The position numbers and the translations under genes are program-made. Positions 46,403-50,637 of a stretch of 64,000 nucleotides of DNA are shown here, piece after piece. Each line of letters starts with the position of its first letter. Position 1 is the stretch's first letter. A model generated the notes under the pieces. The model saw only the letters and a list, made by a program, of their open reading frames with translations, did not search any database and had not been told where the DNA came from. Origin of the DNA: Nitrosotalea sp. (GTDB lineage: Archaea; Thermoproteota; Nitrososphaeria; Nitrososphaerales; Nitrosopumilaceae); the NCBI GenBank assembly GCA_023252235.1, contig JAHEXH010000003.1, positions 1 to 64,000 on the forward strand, given 5' to 3'.

Positions 46403-48115
46403 TCAAAACCACAATCTTCTTGCAATATTCATCGCGATTATTTCTGGAATTGACAATTTCGCATTTACTGTTCCCCAATAGAACGGTTCAGTATACTTGT
46501 TCAAAACAGTCTTCATGACATCATTGAGATAATCCTTAATTGGATTAGATTCATGCGTGCCTAGCACGTCATCACTTTCATCCCATTTTCCCCTAAATTG
46601 TATTGCATTAAGTTCCCACATATTCTGAGCTCGTCCAGCAGGATTGTAACTTCCTCCAAACTTTACATATTTTGTCCAGTTTTTTTCATCGTCTTTGAGA
46701 ATTACAACCATCTGTTTTGCGTGTAACATTTGATATTCCATGTTTTGGCTTTTGGCAAAAAATTGTCTTGTTTCAACTATTGGGTTATTTCTAAGATAAT
46801 AAGCATAGTATTTTGACACATCGGCAATAATCACATTTTCTTGTTTGGTAGGAAAGATCACATGGATTTTTTTATCTTTACTTAATTCGTTATCAATATC
46901 CTTTCTTGAGATTGTAGAATCTTTTGATCTAGATTTGAGTTCATTTTCTTTTTCTCTTGCAAGTTTATTGTATAATCTATTTGCCACTTTTACCAATCCT
47001 CTTGCAACTTTATGATCTGAAAAATACGGTACTAAGATAAAGATTTCCTGAACATCTTCTCTTGTCAATAACTCAACATAGTCCTTTTGTGCATCTTGTA
47101 CATATCCTGGGACATTCATAGACAGTCTCAATGTTATATTTCCCTGTTCTGGAATTTCTTTAACAAAGTATTTCATAATTTCATCTTTTATGAAAGACGG
47201 ATTTGGTTTTTTATCAAAATGAGCATCGTAGTCAGCCTTCTGATTTTTCATAAGCAAGAGTGCCATCATGGTCAAGATTCTTACAAACGGTCCCTGTACA
47301 AGATCCATTTCATCATACATCAAACTGCGAAATTGTGATTCTATTCCTATCCCACCAAAAAAAGCAGCCGTTCCATCAAATATCCATAATTTCACATGAT
47401 TTGCCGCAAGAAAATTGGTAGATACAGGATTGAAACTATTGTTGACTATTACTTCAATGCCTGATTTTTCCATTCCTTCAATCATTGTCAAGGTGTTTTG
47501 TTCAAACTGTTCTAAACTGCTAGGAGGTTTTTGCATTAACAGTGATACAAATCCGTCAACAAGTATGCGTATTATCATATCCGGATTAGCCTTTTTTTTG
47601 TCTATGAGTTTCTTGCTTACTTCCAGACCATAATCATCAGCCTTGAATCCCAGTTCAATTCCAAGAATACTTTCTTGGGATTTGTTAGTAATCCAATCAT
47701 AGAATCCATTTTTTGAGTTATTCCAGTTTTCACCAGCAGGACCACCATTCATGAATGGGAGGAGTAAATTAGATCTTACCTCACATATTTTTGTCAATTC
47801 AGAAATTTCTTCTCTAGACAGGTTTTCATCAAACAGTTTGTTTATTGCAATTTTTATGAATTCTTGTGGTTTTATCGGAGTTCTTTTTTTCAACAGACCG
47901 CCCAAAAATCTTATGAGATCACCCAAAATTGGATATACGGATATTTCATCTGAAAAAATTTCAGAAATTGTTCTGGATATGTCATCATCGTAATAGTGAT
48001 TTGGATTACTTTCTTTTTGAATTCCCTTTAAGCTATCAAATTTGTATTGTCTTGCTTTAGAAAGAACATCAGATAGTTCAACCTCTAAATCAGAATTGTT
48101 TATTCTATTTTTCAT
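46403..48115 (-). CDS. Phospholipase D-superfamily-like protein
   Basis: 570 aa; two HKD-like motifs: HVKLWIFDGTAAFFGG and HAKQMVVILKDDEKNW...FGGSYNPAGR. Confidence 0.75.
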   Translation of the reverse strand: MKNRINNSDLEVELSDVLSKARQYKFDSLKGIQKESNPNHYYDDDISRTISEIFSDEISVYPILGDLIRFLGGLLKKRTPIKPQEFIKIAINKLFDENLSREEISELTKICEVRSNLLLPFMNGGPAGENWNNSKNGFYDWITNKSQESILGIELGFKADDYGLEVSKKLIDKKKANPDMIIRILVDGFVSLLMQKPPSSLEQFEQNTLTMIEGMEKSGIEVIVNNSFNPVSTNFLAANHVKLWIFDGTAAFFGGIGIESQFRSLMYDEMDLVQGPFVRILTMMALLLMKNQKADYDAHFDKKPNPSFIKDEIMKYFVKEIPEQGNITLRLSMNVPGYVQDAQKDYVELLTREDVQEIFILVPYFSDHKVARGLVKVANRLYNKLAREKENELKSRSKDSTISRKDIDNELSKDKKIHVIFPTKQENVIIADVSKYYAYYLRNNPIVETRQFFAKSQNMEYQMLHAKQMVVILKDDEKNWTKYVKFGGSYNPAGRAQNMWELNAIQFRGKWDESDDVLGTHESNPIKDYLNDVMKTVLNKYTEPFYWGTVNAKLSIPEIIAMNIARRLWF

Positions 48116-48143
48116 TTTAAAAACTCGTTCGTGATAATTTCTG

Positions 48144-48959
48144 TTACGTCAGAATACCTACCACTACAAAGAGAGTTCCTGATACAAATACCAAGATAAC
48201 TGTGGTGGGATTGATGATATTCAGAACTTGGGTAAGACTGGTACGTGTTTGTTGTAGCATGTTAACAGCGTTTTGAAATCCATTTCTAAGATTTGTGTCA
48301 ATAAAGGGAATTAATCCAGATATATTTGTGGAAATACTTTGTACACCATCAGCAATATTGATCAGTTTTGTATTGATGTCTGAGAGTTTGTTTGCAGCAT
48401 CATGGATGCTGTTTCCAATGGTTGTGCTAGTAGAACTTATTGCGCTTACATGTGTATCGACCACATGCAACTTGCCTACAAAAGTGGCAGGGTTACCTTG
48501 CGTGCCAAATGGATGCCAGTGAATATCCAAGGCATCGACATCCAATCCAATGCTTTGAAGTACTCCATGTCCTTCATGTATTATTGTACTAGAGGTTGTC
48601 AGTGTTGGGGCGACATCGTTAATCATCGTATTTCCTGCCGCATTCATGGTTCCAACCACATCATTTGCAATTATGCTTCCGCCATCTCTTATGCTGGTTT
48701 GAACATCGTTTAGTATGGTGCTGGTTTCATTTAGAATTGATTTGGTTTTATCCAATCCCGCATTATGGTCTAATAGATTAATTTGAATTGCATCTTCTAC
48801 TATCTTAAAACCACTATCAATCGCACCCAGAATGGCCACCAGTCTTCCTCTGAACATCCAAAGTGCAGCTGCAAATGCCAAGAGTGACACTCCAATGATA
48901 ATGAGAATAACTTGTGTCAATACAGGATTTGTACCGTACGTTGATTTAAAGATGATCAA
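48144..48959 (-). CDS. Membrane protein with long Asn/Thr/Ser-rich region between two TM segments
   Basis: 271 aa; TM at both ends; 28 nt upstream of the PLD-like gene on the same strand. Confidence 0.65.
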   Translation of the reverse strand: MIIFKSTYGTNPVLTQVILIIIGVSLLAFAAALWMFRGRLVAILGAIDSGFKIVEDAIQINLLDHNAGLDKTKSILNETSTILNDVQTSIRDGGSIIANDVVGTMNAAGNTMINDVAPTLTTSSTIIHEGHGVLQSIGLDVDALDIHWHPFGTQGNPATFVGKLHVVDTHVSAISSTSTTIGNSIHDAANKLSDINTKLINIADGVQSISTNISGLIPFIDTNLRNGFQNAVNMLQQTRTSLTQVLNIINPTTVILVFVSGTLFVVVGILT

Positions 48960-49169: not shown

Positions 49170-50504
49170 TTAATCTTTCAATTCGTTTCCAAGTAATCTA
49201 ACTAGAATTTTTAATGAGCCCACTATAGGGTAAACAATCATGTACTTTATTGCACGTTTGAGATGTCGGTCATTGTTCATCGCTTCTGCTATTGGAGGAC
49301 TGACTTTGTAATAGAATTCGAGTATTTTTTCAAATTGTTCCTTGTTAGACGATTTCAGTAATACAGAATCCCTGAATTCTCTTAAGAATTGCACATGAGG
49401 ATGAATTTCAGAATTCATGGCGGCAGTGGCAATAAAACATCCCTTTTTCTTTTCTGGCTGTACTATTGGATTTGTGTTGGCCAGATTCTTGACTGCCTGT
49501 ATTATGCCATCCGAGTTTTGATAGTCTTGAAAACGCCAAGCTAGAGCCCCTCCATAACCCAATTTACTTGCATCATATAGGAACCCTTTCAATATTGAAA
49601 CTTCTTGATTTGGAACATATGGGCTTGTTTCTGGATGATATCCACATTCACCAATTATGCAATACTTGCCAGAAAAATCAGACGAACTATACGGATCAAG
49701 CGGTATAGGAGTCGTGCTTGATTTGTTATTGTATATGTGAAAATCTGAAAAATCAACACTCGTAGACGATAATGATACAGCCATGCTTTTTCTCATGCAT
49801 CCGACAGACACTTTGATTCCAGACGGTTTTATTTTCTGAGTAGCATATTCCACAAAACTCCGTAACTGCTGGAGAGAAATCATGCTACTTTCAGTCATGC
49901 TTTCTGGTTCATTTATCAGGTCAATTGCATAAACCGCCGGATGATTTTTGATTGCATCCAATAGTAGTACTAACACATTATTGCAAAAATCTAACGGGTT
50001 TTGAAATATGTTTACGATGATCTGTTTTCTTGCCAGAAACAACTTTTGATAATCTGCTAGTCTTGATTGAGGCAATGTTGACGAAGGGTTTGGATTAGTA
50101 TCCCATGAATTAAAAAGTGTAAGATACACTTTGATGTTGTAATTATTTGCAGAATCTAATACCTTGAGGAGATTGTCTGTGAAAGTTCGGTCTAGACCTA
50201 TCAAGTTGTTATTTCCATCTTTGCTGAAAATTATTCCTTCTAATTGTTCAAATAACCACAGTCTGACTACATTAATTCCGCTTATCTTTGAAAAATACTG
50301 ATCTATTGCAGCAGGGTTTTGTGACAAATATGGAGGAGTTTGAGGAATATTGGGTTTTGACAGGTCAATTGTTATTGGAATATCGGGATTGCCCCACAAA
50401 GGAGAATCGTTAAACTCTGATACGCCCAAGTCGGCACCATATTTGTCTTCAAACCAGCCTTGATTAATTCCGACAAGAAATTTTCCGCCAACTGCAGATG
50501 ACAT
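49170..50504 (-). CDS. GH5-like (cellulase-fold) glycoside hydrolase with C-terminal CFI-box domain
   Basis: 444 aa; INVVRLWLFEQ, DLINEPES, IIGECGYHPE; C-terminus KKGCFIATAAMNSEIHPHVQFLREFRDSVLL. Confidence 0.78.
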   Translation of the reverse strand: MSSAVGGKFLVGINQGWFEDKYGADLGVSEFNDSPLWGNPDIPITIDLSKPNIPQTPPYLSQNPAAIDQYFSKISGINVVRLWLFEQLEGIIFSKDGNNNLIGLDRTFTDNLLKVLDSANNYNIKVYLTLFNSWDTNPNPSSTLPQSRLADYQKLFLARKQIIVNIFQNPLDFCNNVLVLLLDAIKNHPAVYAIDLINEPESMTESSMISLQQLRSFVEYATQKIKPSGIKVSVGCMRKSMAVSLSSTSVDFSDFHIYNNKSSTTPIPLDPYSSSDFSGKYCIIGECGYHPETSPYVPNQEVSILKGFLYDASKLGYGGALAWRFQDYQNSDGIIQAVKNLANTNPIVQPEKKKGCFIATAAMNSEIHPHVQFLREFRDSVLLKSSNKEQFEKILEFYYKVSPPIAEAMNNDRHLKRAIKYMIVYPIVGSLKILVRLLGNELKD

Positions 50505-50637
50505 GATTCCCTAGTTTACCATTTGCTATTAAAAATTGTTGAAATGTGTACAAATTAACTTGTTTCCAACCCTAGTCCTGTAAGACACACTATTCATGAA
50601 ATAACTGGAATAATCTGCAGGAGGTTGTAATTTGAGT

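Follow-up and report, generated by a model that had tools for sequence, protein, structure and literature searches.

A leaderless GH5-type glycosidase of Nitrosotalea fused to a CFI-box domain from a branch with exchangeable enzyme heads

A GH5-type glycosidase encoded by ammonia-oxidising archaea of the genus Nitrosotalea lacks a signal peptide and ends in a CFI-box domain. That an ammonia oxidiser carries a GH5 enzyme is the known, ordinary part of this finding. The unexpected part is the tail, since its CFI domain belongs to a leaderless, short-tailed branch with exchangeable enzyme heads, which appears to be undescribed and deserves follow-up. The presence of this tail on different enzymes points to a module that is reused for targeting or docking. 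It is tempting, if still short of probable, to regard the leaderless CFI domain as a portable C-terminal address tag that would bring unrelated enzymes (a GH5 glycosidase, a tyrosinase and a trypsin-like protease) to a common place in the cell: the inner membrane face or, with lower probability, the outside by way of an unrecognised export route. For the protein studied here, the reading put forward, tentatively and with nearly an even chance of being right, is that a competent cytosolic GH5 enzyme would use a predicted four-helix CFI domain to dock to the inner membrane face, or to a membrane-bound partner, for glycan trimming.

The gene and its start site

The window, i.e. the whole 64,000-nucleotide stretch that was analysed, comes from a Nitrosotalea assembly of 713 kb that is 54% complete. 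A complete ORF at 49170..50504 (-) encodes a protein of 444 aa without a signal peptide, composed of a GH5-type (beta/alpha)8 domain (residues 1-345; 49470..50504 (-)) and a CFI-box domain plus short tail (residues 354-444; 49173..49445 (-)). An earlier note on this DNA had proposed just this combination of GH5 domain, CFI-box fusion and missing leader, and all three parts were borne out, by profile comparison, by the NF041770 model and by an in-frame TAG, respectively. It had also allowed for a missed upstream start that would add a signal peptide. The sequence excludes this: the start codon is ATG, and the TAG stands two codons 5' of it (50511..50513 (-)), so that the ORF has no upstream start. 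In the AlphaFold2 model the first barrel strand begins at about residue 10, which together with the TAG leaves no room for a signal peptide. All complete orthologues share the same N-terminal start (M-S-x..GxxFxVGIN), immediately before the first barrel strand, and a leader is absent from every complete GH5-CFI orthologue, as called from hydropathy rather than with a dedicated predictor. The fusion is found, always leaderless, in at least seven further Nitrosotalea genomes and is thus not due to chance.

A predicted mannanase-like glycosidase

A Pfam search with the window protein itself gave no match, including to PF00150 (Cellulase); however, four of the 16 aligned sequences do match this family (best 4.8e-6), which points to divergence rather than an absent feature. 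A profile built from the 16 sequences matched the beta-mannanases 2c0h, 3vup, 4oou and 5y6t in the PDB at 1e-26 to 1e-17, the best match being the animal-type beta-mannanase 2c0h (E=1.3e-26), with other GH5 mannanases ranking below these four, which we take to be members of subfamily GH5_10. Foldseek with the AlphaFold2 model likewise placed GH5 beta-mannanases on top (E 6.5e-14); the full-length model has a mean pLDDT of 80, and most of the barrel lies above 85. The window protein shares the TIM barrel and the NEPE and GE motifs with the animal GH5 endo-beta-1,4-mannanases, but it is only 16-19% identical to them in structural alignments, is leaderless and carries the C-terminal CFI domain.

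Missing catalytic glutamates, another possibility raised earlier, were checked for, and both residues are present. E199 (codon gaa, 49908..49910 (-)) is the predicted acid/base catalyst, lying in the NEPE of INEPES and aligned with NEPEG of solved mannanases, and E286 (codon gaa, 49647..49649 (-)) is the predicted nucleophile, lying in the GECG of IIGECG and aligned with their GE motif. Both are invariant in the alignment of 16 sequences, as are R81, N198, H256, Y258 and W323. The glycosidase thus appears intact and is predicted to be catalytically competent.

The accessible text of two reports describes GH5 genes, extracellular and predicted intracellular ones, in Nitrososphaerales ammonia oxidisers, as well as a secreted GH5 together with CBM32 in the NS-delta clade, and contains no mention of a CFI fusion (PMC11131427, PMC7603488). 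On the strength of these descriptions, the suggestion that a carbohydrate-active enzyme would be unusual in a chemolithoautotroph was overstated. Relatives of the window gene are also contained in three Nitrososphaera-labelled MAGs (L065-L067).

The CFI domain and its last helix

The NCBIfam model NF041770 (CFI_box_CTERM) matches residues 356-424 of 444 (E=6.1e-21; 74 bits against a 40-bit cut-off), so that the window protein shares a C-terminal CFI box with the NF041770 proteins above the curated threshold. The match includes the CFIATAA motif (49419..49439 (-)) with its invariant Cys356. Among the residues invariant across archaeal and phage/bacterial CFI copies are this Cys, a Thr, the Arg and Asp of LRxxRD, a Tyr and the Pro of SPP. 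The domain is of low confidence inside the full-length AlphaFold2 model; modelled in isolation from 19 sequences, it is predicted to form four helices (pLDDT 88.7, pTM 0.77). Foldseek searches with this model yielded no structural match in the PDB (best E 6) and nothing among viral models, and no open-access paper naming the CFI-box domain was found. The domain was rightly called poorly understood; although CFI-box proteins abound in archaea that oxidise ammonia, no solved structure resembles the model.

The last helix of the domain (about residues 413-443; 49176..49268 (-)), delimited from the AlphaFold2 helices and hydropathy, has the sequence KYMIVYPIVGSLKILVRLLGNELKD in the window protein. 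It is hydrophobic, contains a conserved VYP and is a candidate membrane-contact segment; throughout the leaderless branch, a conserved Pro follows Tyr, Trp or Leu in mid-helix. The best 19-residue Kyte-Doolittle mean of this helix is 1.41-1.96 in the leaderless archaeal branch versus a mean of 0.55 in bacterial/viral CFI domains (Mann-Whitney p=1.2e-5, an optimistic value since the rows are related). At 1.53, the window copy is second lowest among the enzyme members of the branch and falls short of the value usually required of a transmembrane segment. Identity between orthologues amounts to 64-82% in the CFI part compared with 41-63% in the GH5 part, indicating that the tail is under constraint, and more so than the enzyme.

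The main support for membrane docking is this marked excess in hydrophobicity of the last helix over its bacterial counterparts. The protein would be a mannanase-like GH5-type beta-glycosidase, presumably cytosolic, equipped with a CFI domain of the leaderless short-tailed branch; its hydrophobic last helix may attach the enzyme either to the inner face of the membrane or to a membrane-bound partner, where the barrel could trim glycans made or carried there, for example lipid-linked glycans or glycolipid head groups. A glycosidase retained inside a near-autotroph would also be relevant to the question of how these archaea synthesise or recycle glycans of their own. The hydrophobicity of the helix could instead reflect burial within the four-helix domain. 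Moreover, the GH5 relatives in Nitrosopumilus that lack CFI end without any tail, so not every such barrel needs docking. In favour of docking, two further CFI-less relatives (L065 and L066) end instead in short aromatic, amphipathic-looking tails, FWEWLLSLFGIA and FWERFLQALGMWRR.

Two kinds of archaeal CFI protein

CFI-box matches were detected in 172 of 200 genomes of the archaeal family, with a maximum of 16 in one genome; several copies per genome are usual in the family, and few or none in Nitrosotalea (12/37 genomes). Among 74 nitrososphaerotal CFI proteins whose 5' end is complete, 60 combine a hydrophobic N-terminal leader with a hydrophobic segment after the CFI domain; the sample was drawn from high-scoring family matches and matches to the window protein and, being non-random, is not to be read as giving frequencies. 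The others are the GH5 fusions, three fusions to tyrosinase, two proteins cut at a contig end and several that seem incomplete or wrongly started. Most of the sampled Nitrososphaerota NF041770 proteins look like surface proteins, with a signal peptide, an ectodomain, the CFI domain and transmembrane helices, whereas the window protein has neither an N-terminal signal peptide nor a transmembrane segment after its CFI domain, and its short tail falls in a separate branch. In a tree of 73 rows, the leaderless CFI domains of GH5, tyrosinase, protease and small proteins form one branch (96/91) and those of signal-peptide proteins another (99/89); the alignment has only 84 columns, and the finer forks are uncertain. 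Because the domain lies outside the membrane in the signal-peptide proteins, the compartment in which CFI works is not fixed, a point against the docking reading.

A profile of the short-tailed branch picked up 19 places, spread over 18 genomes out of 400 in the order; as the branch's own profile was used, proportions among these places are not frequencies either. Of the 19, 16 are of the short kind: seven GH5 enzymes, four tyrosinases, one trypsin-like protease and four small proteins with unassigned N-termini. The tyrosinase Pfam family PF00264 was confirmed in L037/L006, L038/L008 and L162, and L131 was assigned by similarity; the protease (L163) rests on a weak match to PF13365 (E 0.007). 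An even draw over the phylum returned four matches only, all already known. The tyrosinase-CFI proteins of Nitrosopumilaceae (L006, L008, L131, L162) resemble the window protein in CFI branch, missing leader and short tail, but carry a copper oxidase head where the window protein has GH5. The earlier note had recognised the fusion and missed that this CFI copy sits in a leaderless branch together with tyrosinases and a protease. This branch with swapped heads, set beside the signal-peptide branch, offers a clean comparison for working out the function of the domain, since one tail is joined to varied cargo and occurs both in the presence and in the absence of a signal peptide.

Three small leaderless proteins (L165, L166 and L167), each from a different genome in a second family of this order, combine a conserved, unassigned N-terminus (FHWVEGRY..DDSTVFTRRFY..IEGSCIEVN) with a short CFI domain and measure about 160 aa, leaving aside the extra N-terminus of L165.

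Cytosolic CFI partners and alternative explanations

In plasmids, phages and viral contigs, CFI domains are joined to a cold-shock domain (CSD; L052, and L058 by similarity), to Mrr_cat plus WYL (Haloquadratum, L054), to HNH_3 (L080) and to GYF_2 (L076), and they follow TPR or zinc-ribbon regions in L077 and others. No leader is apparent by hydropathy in 19 of 20 distinct copies. Judged from their CSD, Mrr_cat+WYL, HNH_3 and TPR partners, CFI domains evidently work in the cytosol in these bacterial and haloarchaeal proteins. The gene of the Haloquadratum plasmid protein, which joins an Mrr nuclease to WYL and CFI (L054:2221-3255), adjoins a restriction endonuclease gene, and a use of CFI in defence or DNA-processing is possible there.

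Such contexts agree with the cytosolic location assumed for membrane docking. In a second explanation, plausible if somewhat less so than docking, CFI serves in the cytosol for protein-protein interaction or oligomerisation, with no membrane role, and the enzyme is a soluble cytosolic glycosidase. In its favour, the CFI tails of bacteria, which come after TPR, zinc-ribbon and nucleic-acid domains, are hydrophilic or cationic-amphipathic, and the isolated domain is predicted to be a compact helical unit. However, the last helix is hydrophobic, in the manner of weak transmembrane segments, in nearly all members of the leaderless branch. Membrane docking is ranked as likeliest, at somewhat less than even odds, and a purely soluble interaction module comes close behind.

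The short CFI domain might also be a C-terminal export signal, such that leaderless mannanase, tyrosinase and trypsin-like protease exit by a non-Sec route recognising the CFI tail. Every recognised head domain in the branch is of an often-secreted type and none has a leader, and in the signal-peptide branch of archaeal CFI proteins the domain comes to lie on the outer side of the membrane. Export is nonetheless unlikely, given the cytosolic partners (CSD, Mrr+WYL, HNH) of leaderless bacterial and haloarchaeal CFI proteins, the equally leaderless state of CFI-less GH5 relatives and the lack of any dedicated secretion gene recurring beside the loci.

Finally, the earlier suggestion that the enzyme is displayed on the cell surface through lipidation or covalent attachment at the CFI cysteine draws on the invariance of Cys356 and on the surface-protein appearance of the other archaeal branch, yet is highly improbable: archaeal lipoproteins are defined by a signal peptide and a lipobox ending in Cys, whereas this Cys lies at residue 356 with no leader or lipobox before it and an in-frame stop upstream of the gene, and it is just as invariant in leaderless CFI proteins whose CSD, nuclease (Mrr, HNH), WYL and TPR partners have cytosolic jobs, so that surface lipidation does not explain its conservation. 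A modification of Cys356 other than a lipid anchor is possible.

History of the fusion

In the GH5 tree, fusions occur in two lineages, one comprising the window protein and L059-L062 and the other L063/L064 and L067. The CFI-less, Nitrososphaera-labelled L065 and L066 join the window lineage (91/96), and all GH5-CFI copies group together in the CFI tree (97/86). Both trees are compatible with a single ancient fusion followed by loss, although two fusions are also possible. In the Nitrososphaera-labelled MAG L067 (5977-7360), the GH5 domain is followed by a frameshifted CFI remnant in which the CFIATA motif is missing, either a decaying fusion or an assembly error.

A recent acquisition from bacteria was considered and rejected, as the relatives found are nearly all archaeal. 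The GH5 on a contig labelled Planctomycetaceae (L070) branches from within Nitrosopumilus, so this contig is probably mis-binned, and the only bacterial relative is that from Riflebacteria (L074), in which a hydrophobic stretch at residues 58-76 could be a leader. Viral contigs searched with the whole window protein contained no close relatives.

Gene neighbourhood

A conserved neighbourhood was rejected, as the PLD-domain gene flanking the window gene stands beside none of its relatives. Two candidate partners seen elsewhere were likewise set aside as general ones. An ABC-2 exporter ATPase/permease pair lies near GH5-CFI at L059:3-1563, L060:6515-7979 and L062:4218-5925, and is divergent from and less than 100 bp away from it in L059 and L062; it is confined to these three closely related Nitrosotalea species and absent from the window. 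Two class III nucleotide cyclase-like genes (PF00211) occur at L037:4161-6350 and L064:248-3484, and also in L032. In Nitrosopumilus the pair stands beside one tyrosinase-CFI gene; in two Nitrosotalea sister species it lies at a distance of about 2.5-8 kb from GH5-CFI, and it is absent near the window, G468 and G319 copies. The longer cyclase-like gene is present in 0-2 copies per genome, and an HTH/FilR1-like regulator accompanies the pair in L037 and L064. At 46403-48959 (-) of the window, the PLD-domain protein (PF13091), whose second HKD-like motif looks degenerate, is encoded next to a coiled-coil-like protein that is hydrophobic in a segment at either end.
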